NCBI GenBank assembly: GCA_030525445.1
Contig: JAUNEQ010000005.1
Span: 1 to 35,481, forward strand
DNA length: 35,481 nt
Source: Coriobacteriia bacterium
GTDB taxonomy: Bacteria > Actinomycetota > Coriobacteriia > Coriobacteriales > Eggerthellaceae
Reading direction: 5' to 3'
Positions 8,610 to 35,481 of the stretch are shown here, piece by piece. The translations under genes were made by a program, and so were the position numbers. Position 1 is the first letter of the stretch; each line of letters opens with the position of its first letter. A model generated the notes under the pieces. That model saw nothing but the letters and a program-made list of their open reading frames with translations, made no database searches and was not told the origin of the DNA.

Positions 8610-8820
8610 ACGCCACCTCCTGGATGTCGTCGTTCGCGCTCATTATCGCACGTGCGCGTTGGAGACGTTGCCCCAAACGAAATCTCCCGATGGATACGGC
8701 GCCATCCCGCAGCGCGGATGCCTGCCAAACAAAGGCAATGGCTGTGCGTAAACCTTTTTGCGCGACTTAAGGCGTTAATTTTTCGCCGTTCTGTTTGATT
8801 TTGGCGATTTCCGCGATTCT

Positions 8821-8975
8821 GATGTGCAGAATCTTCCGTATTGTTTGATTTTTCACCGAGGGATGCACGTATTGGCGGTTTTCGAGTTGCATATCCCCAG
8901 GTAGATGCGTTGTCGAAAACACCGTACTCAGACCCCCATCCACAAAATCAAACAATACGGAAGATTCTGCACATC
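8821..8975. repeat. 32-bp perfect inverted repeat with nested stem
   Basis: Arms 8821-8852 and 8944-8975 are perfect reverse complements (outer end GATGTGCAGAATC). The 91-nt interior has a second stem, GTTTTCGA (8878-8885) with TCGAAAAC (8913-8920), so the element could fold into one long rod. Just outside, GATTCTG and CAGAATC (8815-8833) form a small competing hairpin. It could be a MITE-like element or a structured RNA. No transposase or clear target-site duplication is seen. Confidence 0.75.
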
Positions 8976-9135
8976 TAAAAGCGAAATTTCGGCGTTTTCA
9001 AACATTTCGGGATATTTTTAACACCTCTGCAAGCCGTCGACGCGTATCACCTCGCGGCAAACGCATCCTCAGACCGGACAAGCGGGCTCCAGACCCGAAT
9101 TCACCCGCAAAGTACACCCATCCGCGAATCGCGAT

Positions 9136-9176
9136 GACGAAAAAGAGGGGCGAAGGCCCTTCGGCCTTCGCCCCTC
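9136..9176 (-). terminator. Intrinsic terminator of aspS
   Basis: A 14-bp perfect stem (GAGGGGCGAAGGCC at 9145-9158 with 9163-9176) has a 4-nt loop and is followed on the minus strand by a run of five T. It begins about 24 nt after the aspS stop. This is a textbook rho-independent terminator for minus-strand transcription. Confidence 0.88.
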
Positions 9177-14014: not shown

Positions 14015-14128
14015 GGGTGGGACAAACCGGCCCGTAGCATATGGGACAAACGTGGGGGCGCGCACGGTTTCAAGACCGTCCGCGCCCCCACGTTTGTCCC
14101 ATATGCTACGGGCCGGTTTGTCCCACCC
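14015..14128. terminator. 54-bp near-perfect palindrome
   Basis: Arms 14015-14068 and 14075-14128 are reverse complements over 54 nt with one mismatch and a 6-nt loop (TTCAAG). The word TGGGACAAAC occurs twice in each arm. It sits between the two-TM protein gene and leuB, where transcription runs leftward, so it should terminate the upstream unit. On the minus strand it is followed by CTGTTTCATC rather than a T-run. The stem is far longer than an ordinary terminator. Confidence 0.75.
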
Positions 14129-18767: not shown

Positions 18768-20705
18768 CTACTTGACGGTGACCTTCACCTTCTTCCAGAG
18801 GCCATTGACGGCCTGGGCCCACACGACGCACTGGCCCTTGCCCTTGGCGACGATCTTGCCCTTGGCGTTGACGGTGGCGACCGACTTGTCGCTGCTGCGG
18901 AAGCGCAGGGCCTCGTCGGAGGCGTAGAGCCTCTTGAGCTTCTTGTCGTGGAAGAAGAGCTTCCTCGCCTTGTCGGCCGCCACGACCTTGCCGGTGATGC
19001 GGGTGGACTTGCCCTTCCTGAGGGTGACCTTCGTCTTGCTGAGCTTGAGCTTCTTGGCGTTCGTGAACTCGGCCGACTTCGTGTAGAAGTGCCCGGCGAC
19101 GCTCGTGGATATGGTCTTCCACTTCTTGCCGACCCTCTTCTGGGCCTTCACCTTGAACTTGTAGCACCGGTCGGCCTTAAGGCCCTTCACCACGCGCTTG
19201 AGCGTGCCCGTGCCCTTCACCACGGCGAGCTTCTTGATGGCCTTCTTGCCGTTGCACTTCTGGAAGTACACGACGTAGCGGGTGGCGCCGTAGACCTTGT
19301 TCCACGTGATGACGGCCTTCTTCGTGGACTTCACGACGGCCTTGGCCACGATGACGGAGTTGCCGTTCGGCTTGGGCTTGGGCTCGGGCTTGGCCGTCGT
19401 GTTGACCTTGAGGCTCACGTCGCCGTACTCGGAGGTGCCGGCGGCGTCGGCCTTCGTGGGCACCGTCGCGGTGAACGGCTTGGAGGCCGACTCGCCCACG
19501 TCGCCGTCGGCGGCGACGGAGACGCTGCTGCCGGAAGCCTTGCCGGTCACCTTGCCGGTCGACGTGATGTCCACGTCGCCGCCGGCCGTCGCGTCCACGT
19601 CGGTGGCGGGGCTCGTCAGGTCGAGCGAGGTGCCGCCGCCGGAGGCGGTGGCCACGTCGCCGGCGTCCACGTCGAGCGGGTTGTCGGTTGTGCCGATGGA
19701 GCCGCCGGCCGTGATGGTGGCGGAATCGGCCACGACGCCCGCGCCGGCGCCCGTGTCGGTGACGTCGCCCGGGGGGGTGATGACGGCATGGTCCTGGGCG
19801 ACTATCGAGTCGACCGGGAGGTCGGGCCAGCCCTCGATGTAGACGTTCTGGCCGTAGGCCCCGACGCTGCCGGCGTCGACCGAGATCGGGTCGCTCGCCG
19901 CGCCCACGTCGGCGCCCGCGCTCTTGAGCGTGGCCGTGCCGCCCGCGGTCACGTCGGCGGCGGTGCCGTCGCCGGTCACCTGCACATCACCGGTGGCCAC
20001 GAGCGTGACGTCGCCGGTGGCCGCGATGGCGGAGCTGTTCAGGTCGCCCTGGTTCTCGACGTTCACGGTCTCGGCGACGGAGCCGTCGGCCGCGCCGGCG
20101 ACGTTGAGCGTGCCGCCCACGTCGGTGGAGAGCGCGTTGTCTGCGGAGCCCACGCTATTGGCGGTTACGTTGAGGTCGCCGCCGGTCGTGATGGCGGGTT
20201 CGGCGGTGTTGGTGTCGGCCAAAACCTGATCGAGCTTGGCCTGGGCGGCTTCGAGAGCCGCCTGCGCCTCGGATGCGGCCTGCTCGGCGGCGATAAGGTC
20301 GCGCGCCTCCTGGGCAGCATGCTCGGCATCAGTTGCGGCCTGCGCGGCATCTGCCGCGGCCTGGTCGGCGGCCTGCTGGGCGGCCTGCGCGTCAGCAGCG
20401 GCCTGGTCGGCTGCAGCCTGCGCGACCTGCGCGTGAGCGGCGGCCTGCTCGGCCGTAGCCTGCGCGGTTTGCGCGTTAGCGGCGGCCTGGTCGGACACGG
20501 CCTGCGCGGCATCAACCGCAATCTGGGCGGCATCAATGGCATCCTGGTCGCCGGAAGCCTGCGCCTCGGCGAGTGCCTGCTGAGCATCTGCAAGGGCCTC
20601 AGCAGCCTGGTCTGCTGCGGCCTGCGCCTGGTCGGCGGCTTGCTGGGCGGCCTCGGCGTTGGCGGCGGCCTGCTGGGCATCGGCTGCGGTCTGCGCGGCG
20701 TTCTG
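18768..20705 (-). CDS. Giant surface protein, C-terminal part (after frameshift)
   Basis: This frame continues the giant gene after the frame break near 20705. It opens with an Ala/Gln coiled coil to about 20220, indistinguishable in composition from the end of the upstream frame. About 270 residues of FHA-like beta repeats follow (motifs such as GGDVDITSTGKVTG). A KPEPKPKP linker then leads to a Lys-rich fibronectin III-like module (ITWNKVYGATRYVVYF) and a bacterial Ig-like module (KSVATVNAKGKIVAKGKG). No LPXTG, TM segment or S-layer-homology domain ends the protein. The strongly basic tail may bind anionic wall polymers (inference). The frame stays open to 20813 but its first ~36 codons are out-of-frame translation, so no independent start is supported. 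Confidence 0.8.
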   Translation of the reverse strand, partial: QNAAQTAADAQQAAANAEAAQQAADQAQAAADQAAEALADAQQALAEAQASGDQDAIDAAQIAVDAAQAVSDQAAANAQTAQATAEQAAAHAQVAQAAADQAAADAQAAQQAADQAAADAAQAATDAEHAAQEARDLIAAEQAASEAQAALEAAQAKLDQVLADTNTAEPAITTGGDLNVTANSVGSADNALSTDVGGTLNVAGAADGSVAETVNVENQGDLNSSAIAATGDVTLVATGDVQVTGDGTAADVTAGGTATLKSAGADVGAASDPISVDAGSVGAYGQNVYIEGWPDLPVDSIVAQDHAVITPPGDVTDTGAGAGVVADSATITAGGSIGTTDNPLDVDAGDVATASGGGTSLDLTSPATDVDATAGGDVDITSTGKVTGKASGSSVSVAADGDVGESASKPFTATVPTKADAAGTSEYGDVSLKVNTTAKPEPKPKPNGNSVIVAKAVVKSTKKAVITWNKVYGATRYVVYFQKCNGKKAIKKLAVVKGTGTLKRVVKGLKADRCYKFKVKAQKRVGKKWKTISTSVAGHFYTKSAEFTNAKKLKLSKTKVTLRKGKSTRITGKVVAADKARKLFFHDKKLKRLYASDEALRFRSSDKSVATVNAKGKIVAKGKGQCVVWAQAVNGLWKKVKVTVK

Positions 20706-21690
20706 CGTCCAGCGCGGCGAAGGCAGCGGCCAGGTCGGCTGCCTGCTGGGCGGCCTCGGCGTCAGTGGCGGCTTGGTCGGCTGCAGCTTGCTCGTCGGCC
20801 ATGCGCTGCGCAAGCAGCTCGTCGGTCACGTCGTCGGGGTCGATGCCCAGCTCGTCGGCAATCTGCTGCTTCAGCGCCTCAAGCGCATCGTTGGCGGCGT
20901 CGGCGGCATCCTGAGCCGCCTGGGCTTCCTCGCGGGCCTCCTCGAGCGCGTCGAGACGCGCCTGGATGTCTGCCGCTGCGGCCGTGGCAGCCGCGGCCTC
21001 GGCGGCCTTATCCTCGGCGGTCTGCTTGTAGGCGTCCACCTCGGCCTTAAAGGCCTCATAGGCGTCCCGCGCCTCGTCGCGGGTAGCCTCGGCGGCATTG
21101 GCGGCATCCTGCGCTGCCTGGGCGGCATTGGCTACGGCCGCGGCTGCGGCTGCGGCTTCGTCTGCCACCGCCTGCGCGGCGGTGACGTTCTGGGCGAGCA
21201 GCTCGTCCGTCACGTCCGCAGCGTCGATGCCGAGCGCCGTGGCGATGTCCTGCGCAACCTGGTCGAGCGCGGCCCGCGCTTCGGCGATGGCGTCCGCGTC
21301 GCCGGCGGCCTCGGCATCCGCCAGGGCCTGCTCGGCCGCGGCGAGGGCGTCGGCCTGCGCCTGGGCCGTCTCGGCTGCCGCCTGGGCTGCGTCGCCGGCG
21401 GCCTGGGCATCCGCCAGGGCCTGCTCGGCTGCGGCGAGGGCGTCGGCCTGCGCCTGCGCGGCATCGACTTCGGCCTGCGCGTCGTCGGCTACAGCCTGGG
21501 CGTCAGCGGCAACCTGCGCCGCATCCGCAGCCGCCTGCGCGGCCGCTTCATAGGCAGCCTGGGCGGACTCGTATGCCTCCAGCAGCTGCTGCAGCGTCTC
21601 CTCGCGCAGCCGTGCGCTCTCCGCGGCGCTATCGGCCTCGGCCTGGGCCACGCGGGCCTCCTCGAGGAGGTCAGCCAGCGTGCTGATAAG
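20220..21690 (-). repeat. Ala-rich coiled-coil region of the giant protein
   Basis: About 490 codons encode Ala/Gln/Asp/Glu-rich heptad-like sequence. A motif of the form LGIDxxDVTDELLAQ occurs twice, near 21200-21235 and 20815-20855, about 380 nt apart. A near-identical tandem duplication of about 69 nt lies at 21298-21366 and 21391-21459 (period 93 nt, 31 codons). The frameshift sits inside this region. Confidence 0.8.
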
Positions 21691-24600
21691 GTCGTCGGTA
21701 TCGGCATCCACGAGCGCGCCGTCCTCGACGACCAGGTTGACATCGCCGCCGGCCACGATGGCGCCCACGACCATGTCGCCCACGACCTCGGTGAGGTACA
21801 CGTCATACCGCGCAACGGCATTCACGGTGCCGCCATCGGTGTCAAGCTCGATGGGCGCATCGGCGGAGCCGACATTGCCGTTGGTAGCCGTCAGCGTGAC
21901 GCCGGAGGCCGTGATGTTGGGCTCGGTCGTGGCATCGTCACGCACGTCCACAATGGCGACGGCCGTCAGCTCGACGTCTCCGTTCGCCACAATGGTGTTC
22001 ACGCCCAACTCGCCGCTCTTCTCGGTTATATCCACATCATCTGCGGCGGTAATGGTGAGCGAGCCGGTGGCGCGCTTGTCGTAATTCGCGATCTGCTCGT
22101 AATCCACATCCCATACGGTCGTGAAGGAGCCGGTCTCGCTATCGTAGACAACTGCAGGAACGGCGCCCGTGGCCTCGTTTTCGATACTCGTCGCGATGGC
22201 CGTGAGTTCAACCACGCCGGTCTCGATAACAAGGGCGTCAACATTGCCGGCAGCCGTAATGGTGATGTCGCTAGCCTGGACGTTTACGGACTCAGCCGCG
22301 TCGCCCACTATGTCGCCTGTCGCGGCGTCGATGGTCGAGAGCGCAACATCGCCGAACTCGGAGACGACCGCGCCCACGGTCATGGTGCCCGTGGCCTGGG
22401 TGATGGCGATGTCGCCGAGGTTCTTCACGTACGCGGAACCGGTGGACTCGCCCACCGCAATGGTGAGGCCCACCAAGGCGTCGAGCGCGTCGGGGTCGGT
22501 CGCGGGATAGGTCGTGGCGGCCCACGCGTCCCGCTCCAGGGCTGCAAGGTCCGTGGCGGTCATCAGCATCGACACGGCCTGCGCAAGCGTCGCGCCCGTA
22601 ACCTGTCCCTGCGCCTTCTGGCTGTCGAGCCAGGCGGCCAGCGCGTCAGCGTCACCGGCGGCGATGATGTCGTCAACCGCCTCGGCGGTAGCCGCATCGA
22701 GCGCGGCCACGGCCTCGGCGTTGCCGGCGAGGTGCGCGACAAGCCAGCCCGCGAGGTTGTCGATGTCGGCCAGGACATCCTCGACGTAGGCCGCACGTGC
22801 GGCCTCGTAGGCCTCGTGCGCCGTCGCGTTGGCTGCAGCCACCTCCTCTTCGGTGATGAGGCTTTCAACCAGCGCGGCAAGCTCTTCGTCGCTCATGGCA
22901 TCAAGCCCGGCGAGCCTCGGGTCGTCTGCGTCCAGGCGCGCGGTAATCCAGCTTGTGCGGTTTTCTTCGGTATCGGCCAGCACCGCTGCGGCAAGGTCGC
23001 CGGCGGTGATATTGGCTGCTGGGGCAACGTCGGTGTCGGTCACGAGCGCCGCCACGAGCGCCGCGATGGCCGCATCGTCGAGCGTGCCCTGCTCCTTCTG
23101 GCGGGCAAGCCACGCCGCGAAGGCGTCCGCATCGCCGGCGGCGATAATGGCGTCCACCGGGTCGGCAGCCGCCGCATCGAGCAGGGCGATAACGTCATCA
23201 TGCCCCTCGATACGCGCGAGAATCCACGCGGCCAGATCGGCGCTATCGCCGGAAACGACCGTCGTGGTCACGGTCTCGTCACCCAAGCTGCCGAAGTCGG
23301 TGCCGGTGGCCTCGTTGCCGTCCTCTGTCCGGCCGGTAACCTCGGCCAAGGTCTGGGCTCCCACCAGGTAGTAGTTCGCCGCATGCGCGATGTTGAGCGC
23401 GGTGCCCTCGGGCAGGTCGACTACCAGGTAGTCGTCGGCCGTGTTGATGTCGCCATCGGTGGTAAGGGTGAACTTGGCATCACCGGTGCCGACGATCACA
23501 TCGCCCACGATGCCGGCCTTTGCGTCGACAGCAACCGCGCTACCCGCAGCTGCGTCAATCTCGTCGAATTTCGCATAACCTGCGTCATTGCGCATGGTAA
23601 ACACTCCGTAGGCGCCAACTTCGGCCTTGTGGCCGGTGACAGACCCGTCCTCGACTTCGCCTGCGGGGTTGGTGTAGGCGCCTGCGGTTGCAAGCGTTAC
23701 GGAGCCGCCCGATGCCGCATCGGTGGCGTCAGCGACAACAACGTTCTGGAAGACGTTGTCGCGATGGGCTGTCAGCGTGGCCGTACCACCCGCAGCCGCC
23801 GTGAGGCAGCTTTCGGTGCCGTCCTCCTTGTAGACGCCCTTCACATCGCGGGCAGCCTCGAGCTCGAGCACGGCATTCTTGGCCACGTCGATCGTGGTGT
23901 AGATGATATCGAGGCTCGCGGTGTGGTGATAGCTCGCGCCCTCGGTAACGGTGAGGTCGTCGGGCAGCTTCACAGAGCCGTCGGTCTCGAGGTAGACATC
24001 GCCGGTGATGACGTTCTCATCGCCAGAGAGCGTCACGAACTCGACCTCGACCTCGCCGCCAGCCGTGCAAGGCGCGGTGACGAGCGGGTCATCATCGGTG
24101 CCGATATCGACGCCGTTGCCCGTGATAATCGTAATCGTGTCGCCCGTGATGGCCGGGGTCGGGTCGCCGTTGACGAGCGCTGCGCCAGCACCGGAATCGG
24201 CCAGCGTAACCGTCGTGTCGACGCCCACGATGCCGGAGAGCGCATAGGTGCTCCCGGACTCCGCGACAGCGACCCAGGCGTCGGTGGCCGGGACGACATT
24301 GCCATCGGAGTCGGCCAGCGTGCCATCGCGCAGCGTGTACTCGAGGAACACGAGCTTCTTGGCGGTGCCGGTGCCCGTGTAGTAGCGCTTGATGGTGAGG
24401 TAGGTTGTGCCACCGTACGTGATCTTGAACGTATCGGTAGTCGCATTCGTCCAGGTCGTGCCGTCGTCGAGCACCTTGGTCCCGGTGCCGGACGTGTGCG
24501 TGCCCTCGGTCGCCTGCTGGTACGTGCCATCGCTCCCGAGCACGTAATACAGGCCGTCGGCGGAGCGCGCCACCTCAGGCGAGAGCACCTCGAGGTAGAT

Positions 24601-27600
24601 GTCCTGGTTGGGCTTGAGGACAACGGTCGAGGCCTGCTGCGCGCCGTTTGAAACGGGCGTGTTCACGATGGTGTAGGTCGCGTTGAAGGTCTCGGTAGTG
24701 CCAATGGGCAGGTACCACGCCTGCTGCACCGCGCCAGCGCTCAGGTAGTTCGATGCGCTGCCCGCCGAGCCGCCGATCAGGTCGAGCGCGGCGAGCGCAA
24801 GCTGGGCGTTCTCAATCTGGGTGGTCGTGCGGGCGTTAGAGATCTGCTGCGCGAGCCAGGTGGCGTAGCTTGCCTTGTCGTTCAGGGCGTTAAGCGCCGC
24901 GCGGGCGCGCTGCGTCACGTTGACGTACTCGTCCTCGAGCAGCGCGATGTTGATCGCGAAGAGCTTCTTGGTGAGGCTCGCCGCGGCAAAGGCCGTCGTG
25001 TTGGTCAGCAGCGTCTTCCTGACTTCCAGGAGATTGGCGAGGTCCGTTTTGCTCCACGAGGACTCGACGCCATCTTCGCCCACGGTGACGGTCGCGAAGT
25101 CCTTGCTGCCAAGCGCCTTGTTGAACCACGCCACGAAGCCGGCGTAGTCGGTGGCCTCGCGGAAGTAGTACGTGCCGTCGTTGGCCACGTAGAGCGCCTC
25201 CGTGATCTGGTAGCCGACCTTCGAGGAGGTCGAGCTGGCCCAGACGGTGTCCTCGGGCAGGCTCGTGCTCTTCACCTGGGCCCCAGAGATGGGGCCGAGG
25301 AGGGTGAGCCTCGACGCAGTGTTGATCGTGGAGGCCGTGTAGTAGGTGATGCCAGATGCGAACGCGGTGATGCCCGTGGCCTCGACGTAGCAGCGATTCG
25401 TGCTGTCGAAGGTGTAGTACGTCGCGCTCGCGTCAAAGGCGGCATCGCTGGCGACTTCGGTGTACTCGACCGTCTTCGTCATCGAAACGGCGTTGGTGGC
25501 GACGGCGCCTTCGCTACCCGCCTGGTTGACGGTCAGCGTCGTGGCACCCGCGGAAGCCGTGTAGTAGGTCGTGCCGGATGCGAACGCGGTGATGCCCGAG
25601 GCCTCGACGTGGCGCGAGTTCACGCTGTCGTAGACGTAGTAGGTCGTGTTCGCGTCAAACGCGGCGTCGCTGGCGACTTCGGTATAGGTCGTCTCCTGCC
25701 CCAGAATGGCGTCGGCAGGCGTGAGCTTGATATAGTTGAAGGTCACCGTGTGCTCGTACGGATGCAGGATAACGTAGTTGTAGCGGTTCGAGGCCTTCTT
25801 CTTCGTGCCAGTCAGGTATGCCATGCGCAGGCAGTCGTAGGGCGTGGTCTCGAGGTTGGCTCTCGTGACAAGTTTATTCGAGAATTCGGTCGCGGTGACG
25901 GGGTTGTTCCCGTTGCCGTTCTTGCCGTAGACCGTCATCTTGGTGAGCGTGCTCTTCCAATCCTCGGTCCAGATGATGTTGCGCAGGTACTCGTAGAGCG
26001 AGCGGGCGTCGGCGTTGTTGCGGTACTCGTCGGATACTACGGCCGCAGCCCAATCGACATAGCAATAGTCGCCGCTCTTCTTGATGGCCGTCAGCGTGAT
26101 GTTGCTTCCGATGCTGATGCCCGCCATGTCCGCCACGGTCGCGCGCACCGCATACGAGGTGATGCCGGTGAGGACATATTCCTTGTAATCGCTCCGGTTG
26201 ATGTCGACGCCTTCGCGCTTATACGTGGGCGTGATGACCACCGTCGCCGTGGAGCCGAGGAAGCCGCTGATGCTTATGGTCTCGGGATGCGCAAGGACGT
26301 TTGCGATGGCCTCCGTGGGCGTGTTGTAGGTGGCATAGCCGTCGCTGTTGGTGTTGCCGGTCTTGCCGCCGTTGACGAGGAGATAGCCGATGAACTTGCT
26401 GCCGCCGTGAATCTCGCTAAAGATGACGTCGCCGTCGTCCGTGGTGCCCTTTTCCTCGTCGGTGTACGTGTCGTCGAGGTAGTCGTAGACCGTGCCGGAG
26501 CTCGTCTGCGCCTGCGAGACCTGCCAAGCCCCCATGGTGTCGGTGGAGCTATCGTAGGAGAGCAGGTACACGCAATTGGTGAACGTGGGCACCGTCATGG
26601 CGTTGAGCTGCTTGACGGCAGCGGACGCGGCGGCCGTGCCATTGGTGAGGTGCGTGTAGAGCCAGCTGTTGAGCGTGGTGCGGTTGCTGATCGCCGTGCC
26701 CGCCGTGTTGAGACCCGCGTGGGTGTAGACCACGGAGGTGAGGTCGCCGGTGGTGAGAAGGCTTGTGACAAGGCTCTTGAGAGCCGTGTCCGTGAGGTTG
26801 GCGGCGGCGAACCAGTTGGTGAGGCCGTCCACGCTGCCTGCCGCGACCTGGGCAGACGCGGTCGCCCAGTACCGCTTGTCGTACGCGGTGAGAAGCTCCG
26901 CGTTGCCGTCGAGCTTGAGGCGATCATTGATGAGCGTGAGCAGGTCGGTCTCGGAGGCGCCGTCCGTGGCGAGGATGCGACTCGCGATGGCGCTGGTCGC
27001 GATGGTCCTGCCGTCTGCGATGTCGTCGCTCGAGACGAGCTCGACGAGGTAGTCGGCCGCGGACTTCTCCGCGTTCCCGCCGATGTGGCCGGTGATGTAG
27101 TCCCACGCCTGGGCGCCGGTGTAGCCATCGGTCAAAAGCAGGACCGAAAGAGTCGGGTCGGTCGTGTCGGATCCGACCACCACGAGATTGTCGAGCTCGG
27201 CGAGCACGGCGGCATAATCGTCGTCCTTGAGCTTGCCGAGCAGCCAGTCGCCGAAGCCGGACCAGTCGGGCAGGTAGGCCACAAGCTCGGTCTCGGTATC
27301 GTAGTCCTCGTCAACGAGCAGATCGAAGACGATGGCCTCGAAGGCCTCCGCATCGAGCGTGCCCGAAGCGCCGCCCTTGGCGATCCAGGCCTGGAGCGCC
27401 GCGAGCTCGTCTGCCGTGGGCGTCTCGCCCGCCGACAGGTAGTTCGAGAGGACATCGCTGTACGCCAGGTCGTACGCCGTGAGAAGCTCCGCATTCTCGT
27501 CGAGCTTGAGGCGGTCGTTGATGAGCGTGAGCAGGTCGGTCTCGGAGGCGCCGCCCGTGGCGAGGATGCGGTTCGCGATGGCGTTGGCCGCGATGGCGTT

Positions 27601-30600
27601 ACCGCCCTCGATGTCCGCACTCGAGACGAGCTTGGCGAGGTAATCGGCTGCGAGCGTCGTCGCGCCCTCGGTGATGTGACTGGTGATGTAGGCCCACGCA
27701 TCCGCCCCGGTGTAGTCCGTACCCGCAAGCAGGGTCGAGAGCGTCGGATCCTCGTCTGTGCCTTCCGCGAGGGCGTCGAGCTCGGTCACAACGCTGGTAT
27801 AGCCGCTACTCGTGAGCTTGCCAAGCAGCCAGTCGCCGAAGCCGGACCAGTCGGGCAGGTAGGTCGCGAGGTCTGCCGCGGTGCCGTAGTCATCGCTGTC
27901 GATGAGCGCACCCACGAGCGTCTCGAGGGCCGCTGCGTCGAAGGTGCCCGTGGCACCGCCCTTGGCGATCCACGCGTGGAGCGCCGCGAGTTCGTCTGCC
28001 GTGGGCGTCACATCTGCGGAGAGATAGCTCGAGAGCAGGTCGCTGTAGGTCCTGTCGAGCTCTTCCAGAACGTCACGGTTGCCGGACGTGGAGAGCTGGG
28101 TGAAAAGCCACGCGTAGAGGTCGTCACGAGCCAGTATCGTAGCAGCCGCCGTCGCGCGTTCGGCGTCGGTGACGTCATCGTAGTCCTCGCTGTAGATCAG
28201 CTCGTTTACGAGCGTGATGAGCAGCGTGTCAGTGAGCGAGCCGCCCCACCTGTTGAGCCATGCATTGAACGCGGTGCCCGTCGTGAGGGTCACCGGGTCG
28301 CTTGCGCCGCCAAAGGCCGCGGCAAGCGTGTAGCTCGCGACGTTGAAGCTGGTGCCGGCGCTGACGAGCTGGTAGTAGGTAACATTGCCAAACGTCACCA
28401 GCTCGGTGGCGGAAAGCTCGGCCACGGTCGGGATCGAGACCGTGGCGGTGGTGCCGTCTTCGAAGGTCACGGTCTGCTCGACCGGCGTCGAGTAGTCGTA
28501 GACGATGACCGTCCCGTTGCCGGTGACGAGGTTCTTGATCCAGGCGCCGCTGACCGACGAGAGCAGCATCTCGAGCGAGGCGCCTTCGTCGATGGTGATG
28601 ACGCCCGTGGCCAGGTTGATGGACACACCGTCGCCGAGCGTGGCCACCAGCTGCCCCGCGGAATTCTTGCTGACCGCGTAGTCGGAGAGCTGCACGTCGA
28701 TGCTACCCTCGATGACACGGGTCACGATGCCATCGACATCCGTGTAGATGTAGGTGCCGTTGGGCAGCAGGAAGGTCATGCCGTCCTCGGTGCTGGCGAT
28801 GAGGTACGCCTGCAGCGCCTCGACATCGAGCGTAACCTCGGAAGCCAGCTCGCCCACCTTGGTGTCGGTGTACTCCAGCGTGCCCGGCGTGGGCATCGTG
28901 ATGATGATGGAGTCCGGGTCGCGATAGATTGTCATCGCGGTATTGACGTAGAGGTCGGTCGTGGCGTTGCCCGCGATGTCGCTCACGATGACGGCGCTAT
29001 CGCGCGGGGTGGCCGTTACGGTGTAGTAGGTCATGCCGGACTCGAACGCGGTGATGCCCTCGGCCTTGACGTAGCTCTTGCTCGTGCTGTTGTAGGTGTA
29101 GTAGGTCTTGTTCGCGTCGAAGGCCGTTCCGGCGGCGACCGCGGTGTACGAGATGGCGTCGGCCGACGCGAGCTTGACGTCGGTGATGCCGAAGTAAATG
29201 CTGCCCGCCGCATGCACGGACGTGGTCGGCAGCGCAGTGTCGAGCCAGGTGGCGTAGAGGTTCACGCGCTTGGCGGCGGTGCCGACGTCCTGCGCGCCGC
29301 TCACGGTGAACGTGTGCGCCCAGATGGGGGCGACGCGGATGCTCAGGTTGGTGGTGGCCACCGTCGGGTCGGTCACGTACAGGCTGCCGCGGTTGTCGGG
29401 ATCGGTCCAGGTGAAGCCCACGGAGCCCGTCGGGTTATAGACGAGGCCGCCCACGGTGACGTCGCCGCCGGCGTTGCTGATCACGGAGACCTCGGGGCGC
29501 ACGGGAGCGCCGTCGATGCCGCCGGTGACACCGGTCTTGTTGACGCCGGTGGCGGTGACGCCGTTGACGGACGGGTTGAGGTAGCTGGCATTCTCGACCG
29601 AGATGGCCCCGATGATGACGTCGAGGTCGGTGCTGTTTATGATCCGGACGTACGGGATCATGTTCTGGTCGTAGACCGCGCTCACCGGCACGTCGACCTT
29701 CGAGACACTGCCGTTCAGATTGCAGGTAACGTAGAGCGTGCCCTTGAGCGGGTTCGAAATCTTGCCAAACTGGACATAGCCGCCCTCGCCGCGCAGAATG
29801 CGGTAGATCTCGCGGCCGCTGTCGCGCTCGCCGCGCAGGCCGACGGTGCGCACGACGGGCGTGTACACGGTGCCGGAGACGTCGATGACGATGCCGGCCG
29901 CCGCGTCGCCCACGTAGAAGAGGTTGTTCGAGCCCAAGGTGTTCTCGCCCGGACCCACCGTGGCGGAGACGTTATCGCTTACGGGGTTGATGGTGTAGCG
30001 GTATATGGCCGCGAGGAACGATGACTTGTAGCCGCTGGCGTAGGTCTCGTAACGCAGGTCGTTCGTCGAGGTAATGTCGATGTCCGCACCGTAGATGGTC
30101 GTCGTGTCCATGTCGACCTTGGTCGTGAAGGTCGAATCCTTGGCCAGGTAGGCCTTGGCCGTGACATCGCCCACCGCGTAGATGGCGCCGTAGGCCCTCG
30201 AGTAGATGTTGTTACCCGAGGACGTGTTGCCGCTGCCAGTCACCTTCGGACTGGAGGTGGACGCCACGGTAACCGTGTCGTAGCCCCGGATGATCGTGTT
30301 GCGCACCGTGGTGAGGTTGTCGACGTGCGCTATCGCATCGCTCCAGGCGTCCACGTTGGCGCCGAGGGCGGCGCCGTAGGCGTAGGCGCTGTCGATGGCC
30401 TTCATCGTGGAGTTGAGCGACTCGATGGTGACGTTGCAGCCGGTGATGTAGGCCGTTGCCTTCTCGGCCGTGCTCGTGCTGTCCTCCCCCACCGTGACGG
30501 TGCTCGCGAGCTTGATGCTCGTGGTGGTGGCCGAGTCGGGCTCGGCGCCGACGCCGCGCGCATCGGCGCTCACATAATTGTAGAAGTACTCGAGCGAGGA

Positions 30601-33600
30601 GTCGGAGATGATGTTGATGGCGCCGAAGGTATCCTCGAGAACCGCGCCCGCGCCGATCGTCGTGCTCGCAGCGGAATCGATGGTGCTGTAGGAGCGCACC
30701 TTCGAGAAGCCCGCGAAGCCGCCGGCCTCGACGTAGCAGCGGTTCGTGATGGAGTCGTTGTCGCCGGCGACGGCCTTGAGGTCGATGTCGCTGAAATCGG
30801 CCGTGATCGTGGCACCCTCGCCAACCGTCACGCTCACCGTGCGGTTGACCGTGTTGTAGGCCTGAATCGAGCCCTTGCCGCTGAACACGCCCACCGAGTC
30901 GGCGGCGCTCACGGTGTCCTGCTTCACGTTGCCGCGGGCGATGACGCTGACGCCGACCCCCGCTGTGAGCTTGGCGCCTGCGCCGATGCTCGCGGTGGTG
31001 TCCGTGGTGGCCTCGGCCGTGGAGTAGGTCTTCGAGACGTCCACGCTCAGCGAGATGCTGCTGGCCTTGGCGTCGGACGCGGCCTCGGGCTTAGACTCGG
31101 AGGTCACAAGGATGCTGCCACCCGCGTCGAGCGTCGAGCCCGCGCCGATGCCGGCTTCGGTCTTGAAGTTGGACTTCGAATAGAACGTGACGTCGATCGT
31201 GCCATCGACAGAGACGTTGCCGCCGCCGTTGATCTTGCCCTCGGTGCTGCCGAGGTTCTTGGCGGTGATGGCAATGTCGTAGGGCGACGTGATGGAGGTG
31301 TCGTCGCCAACGGATGCCACGACGGTCTGCGGCGAGGAGGCCGAGCCCATATCGGTGTAGGCGCGAAGCACCGAAACCGTGGTGCCGCTGACCGAACCGG
31401 CGGTAATGGCCGTGCCGTTGACCGTGGCCTGCGAGGTGCCGATGATGGAGACGTTGCCCGTCGAGGTGAGCGCGAGCTTGCTCACTGAGGCGCTCACGTA
31501 GTCGCAGGAGCTGGCGCGGGCATCGAGGTCACCACCGGTTGCAAGCCCGACCGAGAACCCGGTCTTGGCGGCGGCGTCAGAGATGGCGTAAGTCTTCGCC
31601 GCAACGTTGAGCGGCCCCACCTCGTAGCTCGTAGCCGTGCTTCCCGCACCCGTGATGTAGGCCTTGTTGGTGGAAGCGCTCTTGGAGACGGCGGTGTTCA
31701 CCGTGATGCCGAGCAGGGCGATGCTGGCGCCGGAGGACGATCCCACCGTCGCAGTGGCCGCGATGGGGTCGTCGCTCGTACCGAGCGTCGAGGTGACGGC
31801 CATGAGGCCGGAGGTCGTCAGCGTGCCCGCGAAGGTGCTGTAGGCCTCCTGGACCACGCTCTGCGTGGCTGCGACGTCGTTGACAGCCACCTTGAAGCCG
31901 CTGATGCTCACTTTGGGCGTGCGGCCCTCGACGACGGCATGCGAGCTGCCGGTCGCCGTGACGGTGAGCGAGCCGGAGACGTCGAGCGTGCCTGTGCCGG
32001 CAAGTCCCGCCTTGGCGGCGGTGCCGGTCGTGGAGCGCGCGACGTTGGTGATGGAGGAAACGACGGAGACGGACAGGCCGCCGAGCGGGCCGTTGGCCGC
32101 GTAGGAGTAGGTGTCGTAGCTGGTTGCGACATTCGTCGCTCCGGTGTTGCTCGTGCCCGCAAGGCCGAGGATAGCCTCGAAGGTGCCCAGGGCCCAGGCG
32201 CGCGAGTCGGCGACGCCCACGTCGACGAGCGCGATGTCGACCGTCGGCGCAAGGGTATCGGAGTAGGCATAGGAGTGAGCGTTAACCAGGACATCCACCG
32301 TGCCGCGCGTGCCGCCGGCGGTGGGAGCCGTGTCGAGCGTGACGCCCTCGGCGATGGCGCGCACCGTAGCGTCCATGCGGGCCTTGCCCACCGCGACCTT
32401 GATGCCCAGGAGCGTAACGCGGACCTTCTCGCCCTCCTTATCCTTGCCGCCACCGTTGACACCGATCTTGGAGACGGCACCGTAGTTGGTGACGTTGGAG
32501 CCGGAGCCGGTGGGCAGGTTGAAGTTCGAGGCGATGCGGACCGCGCCGCCGTTCGTGGTGATGGTGGCGTCCGCAAGCCTGGCCTCCTGCGTGGCGTCCA
32601 GGTAAGCGAACGAGTTGTTGGAGACGATCTCGGCGCCGGAGACGCTCACGACGCCCGAACCCATCTGGGCCTGGGCGGTGGCGCGGCCGTTGGCCTCCAC
32701 CGTGAGCGCGCCGCCCGTGACGGCAAGCGTGCCCGTGCCGATGACCTCGGCGTTGTTCACGGTGGCGTTCTCGGCGTAGGCAACGTTCACCGTGACCGCG
32801 ATGGCAGCCATGGTCGAGCCGATGCCCGTGGCCTCGGCGGAGGTGATGTTGACGTCGTTGCTGCGACCCGCATAGACCGAGAGCGAACCGGTGGCAACCG
32901 TGGCACCCGTCGTGTCAACGACAGCGCGGTTGTCGGCGGTGAGGTTCGCGACAAAGACGTTTACGCCCACCGCGATGGCACCCGCATTGATGGCGAGCAG
33001 CTGGGTGTCTGACGTGGCGGCAAATCCGGCGTCGATGGTGGTGCCTCCGGTGACGGTGACGTTCTTGCCGAAGATGCCCGCGCGGGCCAGCGTGTCGTTG
33101 GAGACGACGAGCACGTTGGTGCTCACCGAGATGGCACCGGCGGAGACGCCCAGCGTGAGGGCCTGGCCCGCGGTGGTGATGTCGTTGGCGATGATGAGCG
33201 TGCCCACCGTCGCGGTGTTGTTGGTGCCGCCCGCGCCGACGATGGCCTCGGTGACCTTGCCGGTCACGATGGGCGTGGTGCCCACGTAGGTGAGGATGGT
33301 GGGCTCCATCGTGGCCACGGCGACGCCGATCTTGACGGCGATGGCGCCGGCGGAACCGCCGATGATGTTGGCATGCGAGCTGACGTTGGCCTTGGCGCCC
33401 ACGTCGAGCGTGCCGACGTTCGAAAGCGTCGTGGCCTTGCCCACAAAGGTGTGTACCATCATATGGTCGCCCGCGATCGAGGTCGCGCCGTTGACGGCGA
33501 TGGCGCCGCCCGCGAGGCTCGCCGCGAACGTCGTCGCGTCGAAGGTGGTGTCGGACTTGACGGCAACCGTGCCGGTGACGTTCTTGACGACGGCCGGGCC

Positions 33601-35481
33601 GACGATGCCGGCATAGACCATGCCGTTGCTCACAACGACGGCTGCAGAGGCCGTGACCGCCACGGCGCCGCCCGCGAGGCCGAAGGTGGCTGCGGCGGCA
33701 ACCGGGAAGTGCGTCTCGGCCTTGACGAGCACGCTCGCAGCCTTATCGACATTGCCGGCGATGAACGCATAAGAATTGCTGTCGAGACCCAGGTAGGCGA
33801 TGACCGGGGCGACTGCCACGGCCCCGCCGCCGGCGGAGACGGCCACGACGCGCACGCTGCGGCCGTTGAAGGCGTTGCCCACGTTGCCGTAATTGTCGTT
33901 GTCGATGCCCGCCTCGACCTGGTTCTGGAAGGCCTCGTTGCGCGCTGCCTCGTCGGAACCGGCAGGCGCACTCACCTTGGTGGAGCCGGTCCAGGAGGTG
34001 ACCTTCACATCGCCCGTGACGATAAGCGTGGAGCCCGCCTCGGTGTAGGCCGCGGCGTTGGCATAGGTGATGCCCACGGCCACGGTCGGGCTGACGGCCA
34101 CGGCGCCGCCGGCCACGGTGAAGGCCATGATGTCAAGGAGCAGGTGGCTCTTCGCGTCGACGGTGATGTCGTGTGAGGTGACCTTGGAGTCCGCGCCCAC
34201 AAACGCGCGCACGGTGTCACTGCCGTTGATGACCGGCACGTCGGCGTCACCGAGGTCGGTCGCCGTGACGGCCTTACCCGCGGTGGAGGTGACGGTGCTG
34301 TTCATCGTGGCATTGTTCTGCGCAACGTAGTAAGTCTTGCTCGTGTTGAGCACGATATCCTGGGTCTGGACATAGGAGCCGCTCTTCAGCTCGTAGTAGG
34401 TGCCCAGGCTCTCCTGCTCGGGGCTGTCCACCTTGACGTAGGTGACACCCGCGAGGTCGTCGCCGTTCACGCCCTCATCAGCGTGGCTCTCGCCGTCGCC
34501 CGCGAGGTCGTCGCGCAGGCTGGTACCAGAGAGCTTCTCGTAGATGGCCTTGGTCGCCTCGGGATTGGGATCGACCTGCGCATAGTAGGTCTTGCCCGTC
34601 ACGAGCGTGGTGTCCTCGGTCAGGACGTACGGGGTGGCGTTCTTCTCGTAGTAGGTGGAGAGGTCTTCGGCCTTGGGGTGCTTGACCTTCTTGTAGGTGC
34701 CCGCAACGTCACCGTCAGAGTGATCAAGGTAGTAGTAGACCTTATTGGGGTCAACCTCGGTGTCGGTGGTCTTGAGGTAGTCGCCCGTATACTCGTAATA
34801 GGTGGCAAGGTCATCGGCCGCGGGTGTCGTAACCTCCTCGTAGACGTAATCCTCCAGAAGCAACGACTCCAGAAGATCCGCCCAGAGTTTGTCGGGGTCG
34901 AAGAAGGTGACTTCGCCGTCCTCGTCGCCGTCTGAGTCATCGAGGAAGTAGTAGACCTTGTTGGGATCGACCTCGGTGTCGGCGGTCTTGAGATACTTGC
35001 CCGAGTTCGTGTACTCGTAGTAGGTCTCGAGGTCGTCCGCCGCAGGCGACGCGACCTTCCTGTAGGTGCCCACGACGTTGCCATCTTCGTCCAGCACCGG
35101 CGCAGGGTCCTGTGATCCGAGCAGCGCGTCGTGCGAGTCTTGGTCGAGCTTGCCGCCCACGACGGTTACGAGCACGGTGACGCCCACGCCCACGGTGCCG
35201 CCAGAGACGGTGGCCAGGTACATCTGGACGTCGCGGTCGCCGAAGGCGGTCACGCTCACATCACCCGTGCAGGTGACGGTGGTGCTCTTGCCCAGATAGG
35301 CCTCGATGGTGTTGCTCGACTTGGCCACGATGGCGGTGACGCCCACGCCCGCGGTGCCGGCGACGGCCGCAGTGGCGCCGATGCCGAGCATCGTGAAGTC
35401 GTCGGTGGCGTTCACGGTGAGGCTCGCGGCCTTCACGGCTGTGGCAACCGCCTCGGCGCCGTCCTCGGTGCCCACGTAGGC
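20599..35481 (-). CDS. Giant LktA/FHA-like filamentous surface protein (partial)
   Basis: The gene enters from the right edge; its start is outside the window. About 4,925 in-frame codons are credible down to roughly 20705, after which this frame yields Arg/Pro-rich nonsense to a stop at 20599. Repeats of about 40-70 residues with alternating hydrophobic strands, such as AGAIAVGVNVFVANLTADN, fill 30000-34300 and resemble leukotoxin LktA-family filamentous adhesins and haemagglutinin-type beta-helices. Inserted are YYE modules (34318-35070), FDANxTYY modules (25330-25693 and about 29010-29150), helical tandem modules (about 26600-28340 and 22540-23260), further beta sequence, and a coiled coil. 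Adhesion or a surface filament is the likely role. Signal peptide and secretion route are not visible here. Confidence 0.85.
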   Translation of the reverse strand, partial: AYVGTEDGAEAVATAVKAASLTVNATDDFTMLGIGATAAVAGTAGVGVTAIVAKSSNTIEAYLGKSTTVTCTGDVSVTAFGDRDVQMYLATVSGGTVGVGVTVLVTVVGGKLDQDSHDALLGSQDPAPVLDEDGNVVGTYRKVASPAADDLETYYEYTNSGKYLKTADTEVDPNKVYYFLDDSDGDEDGEVTFFDPDKLWADLLESLLLEDYVYEEVTTPAADDLATYYEYTGDYLKTTDTEVDPNKVYYYLDHSDGDVAGTYKKVKHPKAEDLSTYYEKNATPYVLTEDTTLVTGKTYYAQVDPNPEATKAIYEKLSGTSLRDDLAGDGESHADEGVNGDDLAGVTYVKVDSPEQESLGTYYELKSGSYVQTQDIVLNTSKTYYVAQNNATMNSTVTSTAGKAVTATDLGDADVPVINGSDTVRAFVGADSKVTSHDITVDAKSHLLLDIMAFTVAGGAVAVSPTVAVGITYANAAAYTEAGSTLIVTGDVKVTSWTGSTKVSAPAGSDEAARNEAFQNQVEAGIDNDNYGNVGNAFNGRSVRVVAVSAGGGAVAVAPVIAYLGLDSNSYAFIAGNVDKAASVLVKAETHFPVAAAATFGLAGGAVAVTASAAVVVSNGMVYAGIVGPAVVKNVTGTVAVKSDTTFDATTFAASLAGGAIAVNGATSIAGDHMMVHTFVGKATTLSNVGTLDVGAKANVSSHANIIGGSAGAIAVKIGVAVATMEPTILTYVGTTPIVTGKVTEAIVGAGGTNNTATVGTLIIANDITTAGQALTLGVSAGAISVSTNVLVVSNDTLARAGIFGKNVTVTGGTTIDAGFAATSDTQLLAINAGAIAVGVNVFVANLTADNRAVVDTTGATVATGSLSVYAGRSNDVNITSAEATGIGSTMAAIAVTVNVAYAENATVNNAEVIGTGTLAVTGGALTVEANGRATAQAQMGSGVVSVSGAEIVSNNSFAYLDATQEARLADATITTNGGAVRIASNFNLPTGSGSNVTNYGAVSKIGVNGGGKDKEGEKVRVTLLGIKVAVGKARMDATVRAIAEGVTLDTAPTAGGTRGTVDVLVNAHSYAYSDTLAPTVDIALVDVGVADSRAWALGTFEAILGLAGTSNTGATNVATSYDTYSYAANGPLGGLSVSVVSSITNVARSTTGTAAKAGLAGTGTLDVSGSLTVTATGSSHAVVEGRTPKVSISGFKVAVNDVAATQSVVQEAYSTFAGTLTTSGLMAVTSTLGTSDDPIAATATVGSSSGASIALLGITVNTAVSKSASTNKAYITGAGSTATSYEVGPLNVAAKTYAISDAAAKTGFSVGLATGGDLDARASSCDYVSASVSKLALTSTGNVSIIGTSQATVNGTAITAGSVSGTTVSVLRAYTDMGSASSPQTVVASVGDDTSITSPYDIAITAKNLGSTEGKINGGGNVSVDGTIDVTFYSKSNFKTEAGIGAGSTLDAGGSILVTSESKPEAASDAKASSISLSVDVSKTYSTAEATTDTTASIGAGAKLTAGVGVSVIARGNVKQDTVSAADSVGVFSGKGSIQAYNTVNRTVSVTVGEGATITADFSDIDLKAVAGDNDSITNRCYVEAGGFAGFSKVRSYSTIDSAASTTIGAGAVLEDTFGAINIISDSSLEYFYNYVSADARGVGAEPDSATTTSIKLASTVTVGEDSTSTAEKATAYITGCNVTIESLNSTMKAIDSAYAYGAALGANVDAWSDAIAHVDNLTTVRNTIIRGYDTVTVASTSSPKVTGSGNTSSGNNIYSRAYGAIYAVGDVTAKAYLAKDSTFTTKVDMDTTTIYGADIDITSTNDLRYETYASGYKSSFLAAIYRYTINPVSDNVSATVGPGENTLGSNNLFYVGDAAAGIVIDVSGTVYTPVVRTVGLRGERDSGREIYRILRGEGGYVQFGKISNPLKGTLYVTCNLNGSVSKVDVPVSAVYDQNMIPYVRIINSTDLDVIIGAISVENASYLNPSVNGVTATGVNKTGVTGGIDGAPVRPEVSVISNAGGDVTVGGLVYNPTGSVGFTWTDPDNRGSLYVTDPTVATTNLSIRVAPIWAHTFTVSGAQDVGTAAKRVNLYATWLDTALPTTSVHAAGSIYFGITDVKLASADAISYTAVAAGTAFDANKTYYTYNSTSKSYVKAEGITAFESGMTYYTVTATPRDSAVIVSDIAGNATTDLYVNTAMTIYRDPDSIIITMPTPGTLEYTDTKVGELASEVTLDVEALQAYLIASTEDGMTFLLPNGTYIYTDVDGIVTRVIEGSIDVQLSDYAVSKNSAGQLVATLGDGVSINLATGVITIDEGASLEMLLSSVSGAWIKNLVTGNGTVIVYDYSTPVEQTVTFEDGTTATVSIPTVAELSATELVTFGNVTYYQLVSAGTSFNVASYTLAAAFGGASDPVTLTTGTAFNAWLNRWGGSLTDTLLITLVNELIYSEDYDDVTDAERATAAATILARDDLYAWLFTQLSTSGNRDVLEELDRTYSDLLSSYLSADVTPTADELAALHAWIAKGGATGTFDAAALETLVGALIDSDDYGTAADLATYLPDWSGFGDWLLGKLTSSGYTSVVTELDALAEGTDEDPTLSTLLAGTDYTGADAWAYITSHITEGATTLAADYLAKLVSSADIEGGNAIAANAIANRILATGGASETDLLTLINDRLKLDENAELLTAYDLAYSDVLSNYLSAGETPTADELAALQAWIAKGGASGTLDAEAFEAIVFDLLVDEDYDTETELVAYLPDWSGFGDWLLGKLKDDDYAAVLAELDNLVVVGSDTTDPTLSVLLLTDGYTGAQAWDYITGHIGGNAEKSAADYLVELVSSDDIADGRTIATSAIASRILATDGASETDLLTLINDRLKLDGNAELLTAYDKRYWATASAQVAAGSVDGLTNWFAAANLTDTALKSLVTSLLTTGDLTSVVYTHAGLNTAGTAISNRTTLNSWLYTHLTNGTAAASAAVKQLNAMTVPTFTNCVYLLSYDSSTDTMGAWQVSQAQTSSGTVYDYLDDTYTDEEKGTTDDGDVIFSEIHGGSKFIGYLLVNGGKTGNTNSDGYATYNTPTEAIANVLAHPETISISGFLGSTATVVITPTYKREGVDINRSDYKEYVLTGITSYAVRATVADMAGISIGSNITLTAIKKSGDYCYVDWAAAVVSDEYRNNADARSLYEYLRNIIWTEDWKSTLTKMTVYGKNGNGNNPVTATEFSNKLVTRANLETTPYDCLRMAYLTGTKKKASNRYNYVILHPYEHTVTFNYIKLTPADAILGQETTYTEVASDAAFDANTTYYVYDSVNSRHVEASGITAFASGTTYYTASAGATTLTVNQAGSEGAVATNAVSMTKTVEYTEVASDAAFDASATYYTFDSTNRCYVEATGITAFASGITYYTASTINTASRLTLLGPISGAQVKSTSLPEDTVWASSTSSKVGYQITEALYVANDGTYYFREATDYAGFVAWFNKALGSKDFATVTVGEDGVESSWSKTDLANLLEVRKTLLTNTTAFAAASLTKKLFAINIALLEDEYVNVTQRARAALNALNDKASYATWLAQQISNARTTTQIENAQLALAALDLIGGSAGSASNYLSAGAVQQAWYLPIGTTETFNATYTIVNTPVSNGAQQASTVVLKPNQDIYLEVLSPEVARSADGLYYVLGSDGTYQQATEGTHTSGTGTKVLDDGTTWTNATTDTFKITYGGTTYLTIKRYYTGTGTAKKLVFLEYTLRDGTLADSDGNVVPATDAWVAVAESGSTYALSGIVGVDTTVTLADSGAGAALVNGDPTPAITGDTITIITGNGVDIGTDDDPLVTAPCTAGGEVEVEFVTLSGDENVITGDVYLETDGSVKLPDDLTVTEGASYHHTASLDIIYTTIDVAKNAVLELEAARDVKGVYKEDGTESCLTAAAGGTATLTAHRDNVFQNVVVADATDAASGGSVTLATAGAYTNPAGEVEDGSVTGHKAEVGAYGVFTMRNDAGYAKFDEIDAAAGSAVAVDAKAGIVGDVIVGTGDAKFTLTTDGDINTADDYLVVDLPEGTALNIAHAANYYLVGAQTLAEVTGRTEDGNEATGTDFGSLGDETVTTTVVSGDSADLAAWILARIEGHDDVIALLDAAAADPVDAIIAAGDADAFAAWLARQKEQGTLDDAAIAALVAALVTDTDVAPAANITAGDLAAAVLADTEENRTSWITARLDADDPRLAGLDAMSDEELAALVESLITEEEVAAANATAHEAYEAARAAYVEDVLADIDNLAGWLVAHLAGNAEAVAALDAATAEAVDDIIAAGDADALAAWLDSQKAQGQVTGATLAQAVSMLMTATDLAALERDAWAATTYPATDPDALDALVGLTIAVGESTGSAYVKNLGDIAITQATGTMTVGAVVSEFGDVALSTIDAATGDIVGDAAESVNVQASDITITAAGNVDALVIETGVVELTAIATSIENEATGAVPAVVYDSETGSFTTVWDVDYEQIANYDKRATGSLTITAADDVDITEKSGELGVNTIVANGDVELTAVAIVDVRDDATTEPNITASGVTLTATNGNVGSADAPIELDTDGGTVNAVARYDVYLTEVVGDMVVGAIVAGGDVNLVVEDGALVDADTDDLISTLADLLEEARVAQAEADSAAESARLREETLQQLLEAYESAQAAYEAAAQAAADAAQVAADAQAVADDAQAEVDAAQAQADALAAAEQALADAQAAGDAAQAAAETAQAQADALAAAEQALADAEAAGDADAIAEARAALDQVAQDIATALGIDAADVTDELLAQNVTAAQAVADEAAAAAAAVANAAQAAQDAANAAEATRDEARDAYEAFKAEVDAYKQTAEDKAAEAAAATAAAADIQARLDALEEAREEAQAAQDAADAANDALEALKQQIADELGIDPDDVTDELLAQRMADEQAAADQAATDAEAAQQAADLAAAFAALDAERRADRSRCPAGRRQRRGRPASRRPGAGRSRPGC
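25331..25695 (-). repeat. FDANxTYY module, two tandem copies (third at about 29010-29150)
   Basis: Two copies about 140 nt long with a 222-nt period (aligned starts at 25334 and 25556) encode units of the form YTEVASDAAFDA followed by GITAFASGxTYYTA. A third, more divergent copy lies near 29010-29150. They interrupt the beta-repeat architecture and look like horizontally spread cassette modules. Confidence 0.75.
26888..28069 (-). repeat. Two tandem copies of a 591-bp helical module
   Basis: Long near-identical segments recur exactly 591 nt (197 codons) apart, for example the DNA at 26888 and 27479 encoding LLTLINDRLKLD, and that at about 27232 and 27823 encoding LPDWSGFGDWLLGKL. The units are predicted helical, unlike the surrounding beta repeats, and retain high DNA identity, so duplication is fairly recent or maintained by gene conversion. 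Confidence 0.82.
34318..35070 (-). repeat. Four YYE/KTYY modules in the giant protein
   Basis: Four units of roughly 40 residues share the pattern Y-x-K/E-V, then a P, then L-x-T-Y-Y-E, then Y-x-x-T-x-D-T, then K-x-Y-Y. Approximate spans are 34943-35070, 34727-34846, 34577-34698 and 34318-34443. Similar short modules are known in phage tail and other surface proteins (family recollection, not searched). Confidence 0.75.

Follow-up and report, generated by a model that had tools for sequence, protein, structure and literature searches.

Long palindromic repeats of 100-250 bp, such as NEMIS/Correia, ERIC and similar families, are dispersed between genes, and to our knowledge they have no cognate gene of the kind described below. 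Among nucleases, Vsr acts at CCWGG-related sites. The closest parallel to the locus studied here is the REPIN-RAYT system, in which REP doublets go with a REP-associated tyrosine transposase. In the published account (PMC3116915), REPINs are inverted doublets with conserved ends, in which the length of the spacer matters more than its sequence; they are dispersed between genes, each repeat class occurs in sequence flanking the single-copy gene that belongs to it, and the hairpins show compensatory changes.

We hereby analyse a hairpin lying in the window, that is, the whole 35,481-nt stretch of DNA presented above, which is contig C90 of the source genome (G000; 2.23 Mb in 288 contigs, 82% complete). 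With modest confidence, we lean towards reading it as an orphan, non-coding copy of a REPIN-like dispersed palindrome, of which there would be one class per type of nuclease, with the nuclease acting in trans to spread or maintain it.

Results

Anatomy of the element

The hairpin occupies the gap between aspS and a 227-aa gene that adjoins a TelA-family gene. A sequence-only reading had described two perfect 32-bp arms around a 91-nt interior with an inner 8-bp stem, in an AT-rich intergenic island, and these particulars hold: the arms (8821-8852 and 8944-8975) are complementary at 32 of 32 positions with a spacer of 91 nt, the inner stem appears in the predicted fold, and GC content is 0.45 at 8800-8999, compared with 0.55-0.68 in other 200-nt intervals outside the intergenic gap. 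On either strand the predicted fold is very stable (-78.5/-83.0 kcal/mol, z ~ -10) and is equalled by none of 200 shuffles. The inverted repeat is therefore real, but the extent of 155 nt given to it was too narrow, since a weaker pair of units flanks the perfect arms and the two-fold symmetry reaches over 251 bp, of which the repeat first noticed is the core. The position remains intergenic, but the distances to the gene ends, put at about 210 and 225 nt, are for the full element only 164 nt (start of the 227-aa gene, 8609) and 177 nt (stop of aspS, 9200).

The full element is composed of four units of about 30 bp (consensus roughly TGwTAAnAATtnnCGTnaTGTTTGATTTT), two direct units in each half with starts 50 nt apart; the second half mirrors the first about a CCAGG dyad that falls inside a conserved centre (Table 1).

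Table 1. Positions in the window of the element, its parts and a neighbouring hairpin
Feature	Position	Strand	Basis
Whole palindromic element, 251 bp, type A	8773..9023	.	Gapless alignment of half-elements and unit scan
Unit 1 (outer left), CGTTAATTTTTCGCCGTTCTGTTTGATTTT	8773..8802	+	Unit scan
Unit 2 (inner left), exactly 50 nt after the start of unit 1; with 8821-8822 it makes the left arm first noticed	8823..8852	+	Arm comparison and unit scan
Unit 3 (inner right), reverse complement identical to unit 2	8944..8973	-	Arm comparison and unit scan
Unit 4 (outer right)	8994..9023	-	Unit scan
Conserved centre TATCCCCAGGTAG; CCAGG at most 2 nt from the exact dyad, 8898	8892..8904	+	Sequence reading
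Terminator-like hairpin after aspS, with T-run; outside the element	9145..9176	-	Inverted-repeat search; T-run read from the sequence

Three other features of the window were noted. A second palindrome of this sort lies at 3-157 (arms GCGAAACCAAGGTTTGAGGTACGCGA matching at 24 of 26 positions, centre CGCAGGTCA) and by eye is like the class found near the nuclease gene on contig C147; an inverted repeat of 26/26 with a 60-nt gap follows leuB at 14016-14127; and a single ORF of 4958 aa, 20599-35475 (-), fills the window's end.

Copies in the source genome and its relatives

A search of the genome for other copies, as the sequence-only reading had suggested, returned six further ones (contigs C128, C206, C39, C146, C232 and C21) and a remnant on C256, so the hairpin, hereafter type A, is not a single-copy sequence; the copies on C146 and C232 are cut by contig ends. 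Twelve halves from the seven loci, one of them cut by a contig end, align over 80 columns with no internal gap. All 14 TGTTTGATTT sites of the source genome lie inside type-A copies, the reversed-pattern control having none, and in G142 the same is true of 19 of 21 sites. A half-element model matches 9 of 138 genomes of the bacterial family (E <= 0.01); as this model derives from a single genus, the count would miss more diverged classes.

A unit scan of 31 loci from eight genomes found four units in 20 of them; in these, unit 2 follows unit 1 at 50 nt in 19 cases and unit 3 follows unit 2 at 118-121 nt in 18, the other two distances being 100 and 114 nt, figures to be read with the fact that the loci were first found with a model of the same layout and that the weight matrix was refined on them. 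Four loci of G143 have units with another core, GGTTCGGTACGATT, in an unchanged layout, as would be expected if the units follow a trans-acting protein.

In genome_contigs the unit-pair pattern occurs in 13 stretches, four of which, from Coriobacteria/Eggerthellaceae, match the half-element model well; the named records are the Coriobacteriaceae/Eggerthellaceae MAGs SIG39, RGIG2516 (goat jejunum) and RUG13381. The nine others were taken as chance, since two match weakly (E 0.02-0.03) and seven have no match at E <= 1. The pattern is absent from viral_contigs, and an exact 27-mer of the element has no match in genome_contigs.

The copy on C206 sits between convergent genes and, by eye, the genes adjacent to the other type-A orphans have no common theme; nor was a transposase recognised by eye among the listed neighbours of type-A copies. 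On C146, as read from the sequence, the centre is reversed relative to the flanking repeat; an inverton was considered and set aside, since the orientation of the centre relative to the neighbouring repeat differs in this one copy only.

Half-elements with two direct units only stand just before a gene start in G001:C119 (L056) and G143:C41 (L098). A CAACGGTGGTTTAACATAGAGG-like motif lies beside type-A copies on contigs C39, C128, C146 and C256 of the source genome (L022, L019, L021, L058) and at the serC locus of G142 (L116), several of these motifs having a REP-like TCATCCTGAGCG repeat nearby; it is a candidate nested insertion or another mobile repeat.

A linked family of nuclease genes

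The C39 copy lies 5' of a gene of about 326 aa, the product of which has a C-terminal domain that is Vsr/EDxHD-like and homing-endonuclease-like. A type-A element stands 5' of the orthologous gene at G000:C39, G002:C29 and G142:C122, with different neighbouring genes, and the C39 and C122 proteins are 71% and 63% identical to that of G002; the element is thus conserved in close relatives, beside orthologous genes in two other genomes.

At E <= 0.1, Pfam gives nothing for the 326-aa protein of G002. In an alignment of 25 family members, eight match MTES_1575 and seven DUF559 at this threshold, three match the PADLOC homing-endonuclease model, and no Y1 transposase model is present among the eight Pfam families listed. 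Residues D232, E243, H249 and D258, in the C-terminal half, are invariant and look catalytic. The 25-member profile, compared with solved structures, matches 3r3p (PDB name 'Mobile intron protein'; E 5.8e-6), which we take to be I-Bth0305I, and 3hrl (E 0.013). Judged by C-terminal similarity and catalytic-type residues, the linked protein would belong with the Vsr/EDxHD nuclease superfamily. An AbiEi-like N-terminus, suspected at first, was discarded, as the search against solved structures matches the C-terminal part only, and a single-sequence structure prediction was too low in confidence to use (mean pLDDT 38.7).

Of 237 genomes sampled from the order, 198 contain the family (E <= 1e-10); the highest number of matches in one genome is at least 12, with mostly only nine candidates scored per genome. 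No relative was found in viral_contigs or in phage records; plasmid records gave one, from Collinsella aerofaciens, annotated 'hypothetical protein'. Four genomes that carry type-A units and are 70-89% complete have no clear orthologue of the C39 nuclease, its best match being 44% in G001 and 32% in G151, with none in G123 and G143. The palindrome belonging to the G150 orthologue is built of a unit unlike that of the other elements in this genome.

Palindromes flank many family members, typically in a different version for each kind of gene. With palindromes defined by at least 22 of 26 arm matches, a gap of 60-125 and a position within 800 nt of the gene, 44 paralogue loci of six genomes gave a 5' palindrome in 14 and a 3' palindrome in five; 25 have none on either side, some of the flanks being truncated, and two of these (L135 and L138) carry type-A-like elements of four or three units that score lower. 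Twenty base shuffles of each 5' flank long enough reached maxima of 17-20. A distance of 20-333 nt separates the end of a 5' palindrome from the point where the alignment of the gene product starts. A second set of 20 genes, from G005, G096 and G097 of two other genera, gave 5' palindromes in 11, 3' palindromes in six, at least one in 14 and none in six, and at three loci (L242, L244, L256) palindromes with like arms stand on both sides of the gene; here the 3' flank covered about 200-280 nt, and the genes were drawn from the best-scoring matches listed, several of them orthologous to each other, including orthologues common to G096 and G097. Control stretches taken arbitrarily 30 kb away, unmatched for intergenic content, contained a palindrome in 3 of 40; as CCTGG occurs close to the centre of two of these three, they too could be orphans.

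In 27 pairs of gene and palindrome, the more alike the proteins, the more alike the arms (Mantel r 0.21, P 0.0005); the signal comes from related proteins only, r being -0.03 below a similarity ratio of 0.45. Of 26 palindromes, 11 match the dyad motif GACCWGGTC at 7 or more of its 9 positions; the corresponding figures are 3.7% for shuffles and 3 of 52 for flank controls.

Orphan palindromes of other classes

Two further paralogues of the source genome were tested, and both have related palindromes elsewhere in it. For the C23 gene, sequences 72-76% identical to its palindrome lie on C141, C253 and C63. For the C164 gene the matching stretches are shorter and lie on C54, C62 and C229, with a palindrome at C54 (21/26) and C62 (22/26) and none seen at C229. 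In 400 kb of the single-contig genome G005 we found 20 palindromes, two shuffles giving none; three of the 20 are the REP-like TCATCCTGAGCG repeat, and four classes recur (3, 2, 2 and 3 copies). One recurring class has the arms of the palindromes flanking the L244 nuclease gene, which lies at 1.73 Mb, some 1.4-1.6 Mb away. When the classes are aligned, homology drops abruptly near the arms in several, and in class d it extends further. A separate case among the 20, at G005:C1:256760-256910 (L291), consists of two inverted parS-like sites, GTTTCACGTGAAAC; the pair probably serves ParB.

Site occupancy and arm evolution

Occupancy of a site varies between related genomes, as two gaps illustrate (the names serC, pcrA, efp and pepP were assigned by reading protein sequences). 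The serC-pcrA gap contains a type-A element in G142 and G150, and in G143 it is 200 nt long with no element. In the efp-pepP gap, a nuclease gene and its element are present in G002, and G000 has a different palindrome (26/26) whose arms resemble those near the C147 nuclease gene. At the aspS locus an empty site was looked for in G001, where the order of genes is not the same, and in G002, where the contig stops. Inspection by eye of the flanks of type-A and type-B elements, the copies of which have diverged, revealed no target-site duplication. At the loci compared, divergence of the flanks was too great for an exact empty-site junction to be aligned. Another hairpin, 3' of efp in G001:C187 (L210), has perfect arms of about 34 nt and a gap of about 32 nt, and is tighter than the elements described here.

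In the source genome, the two inner arms of one copy resemble each other more than they resemble those of other copies (exact permutation, 1 of 120), and the outer units show no such effect. Over all genomes the inner-arm likeness has P 0.035, with G151 showing the reverse, and the case for re-perfecting of the arms outside the source genome is weak.

Discussion

From the layout of the element and its pairing with a nuclease gene, we infer that the nuclease binds the units, cleaves near the dyad and mobilises the palindrome. The N-terminal part of each nuclease would recognise its own ~30-bp units, several protomers would assemble on these regularly spaced sites, and the nuclease domain would nick or cut the CCWGG-like dyad or a position close to it. 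When the cut hairpin is repaired or replicated across, the palindrome could be copied in trans to further intergenic sites, and the same copying could re-perfect the two arms.

The main rival, which we judge unlikely, is that each protein is a DNA-binding autoregulator with an incidental or dead nuclease domain, the palindromes being its operators and the orphans its regulon. The distance between the 5' palindromes and their genes would suit this explanation, and four like sites at fixed intervals recall a cooperative operator. However, several palindromes are 3' of the gene or on both sides of it, and an orphan lies between convergent genes, which argues against operator and regulon as the whole story; moreover, the neighbours of the other orphans share no theme by eye, the occupancy of a site changes from one related genome to another, and the invariant D, E, H and D look catalytic.

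A MITE had been proposed by the sequence-only reading and, of its three guesses, comes nearest, the element being dispersed, intergenic, non-coding and multi-copy. That the family is moved by an ordinary transposase as yet unfound, the nuclease genes being passengers or insertion hot spots, is nonetheless quite improbable in our opinion: dispersal, the abrupt end of homology just outside the arms in several G005 classes and presence or absence at the serC-pcrA site would all be explained, but no target-site duplication was seen, no transposase was recognised by eye among the listed neighbours, and related nucleases keep related arms across genomes and neighbourhoods.

A replication or recombination site was another of these guesses, and we do not favour it. 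The element would in this case be a chromosome-organising or recombination site (bound by a nucleoid protein, dif-like, or an inversion switch), to which its strict layout, intergenic position and the reversed centre on C146 could be referred; we give this very little credence, because type A occurs in so few genomes of the family, as counted with a model from one genus, and because the many classes per genome and the gene pairing would be left unexplained. Least probable of all is the third guess, a structured non-coding RNA, which the very stable fold and the likeness of inner arms within copies of the source genome recommend, but no Rfam match to the element reaches the gathering score, the outer units do not keep pairing, and four copies of one motif, both direct and inverted, suit DNA binding better than RNA.

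Returning to the nuclease-linked palindrome, the pairing of element and nuclease suggests a kind of small selfish DNA that had not been recognised before, and no description of such a system was found among the literature matches listed, whose coverage leaves out most subscription journals. More tentatively, and with rather less than even confidence, we propose a new class of intragenomic replicator, in which palindromes would be spread and kept symmetrical by Vsr-like nucleases, not transposases, which would cut the dyad and let the hairpin be copied by fold-back; each genome, throughout the order to which Eggerthellaceae belong, would house many classes side by side, differing in specificity. 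If this is true, the REPIN way of life was invented independently here, on the basis of a mismatch-repair or homing-type nuclease. It would also assign a function to a large gene family that Pfam does not cover as a family, present in most of the genomes sampled from a major gut order, explain a burden of hairpins, some of them at assembly breaks, and supply natural pairs of DNA-binding nucleases and ~30-bp targets from which recognition rules could be read.

Comparison with known systems

By the features tested, the element is neither RAYT/REP nor a classical MITE. Like a MITE it is short, non-coding, multi-copy and dispersed, with inverted repeats; unlike one, it is tied to nuclease genes, and neither a target-site duplication nor a parent transposon was seen by eye. 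In general description, NEMIS/Correia and ERIC are similar to it in size class and in intergenic dispersal. With EDxHD/Vsr-like homing endonucleases such as I-Bth0305I the linked protein shares the C-terminal similarity reported above, whereas here the gene, at the loci read, is free-standing and chromosomal, and its family has undergone a large paralogous expansion.

REPIN-RAYT remains the nearest system, since type-A elements, too, are inverted doublets found at scattered sites, and their spacer varies in sequence while keeping its length. The differences are that the linked protein has a Vsr/EDxHD-like nuclease domain and not an HUH tyrosine transposase, that the units are of about 30 bp with four per type-A element and 251 bp overall, and that each genome has many paralogous nuclease genes. 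As for one gene per repeat class, type-A elements stand beside orthologous genes in three genomes and arms follow proteins in similarity; no orthologue was detected in G001, G123, G143 and G151, and 25 of the 44 loci have no palindrome at the threshold used. The linked enzyme being of another superfamily, the system would work like REPIN-RAYT and is not a member of it.
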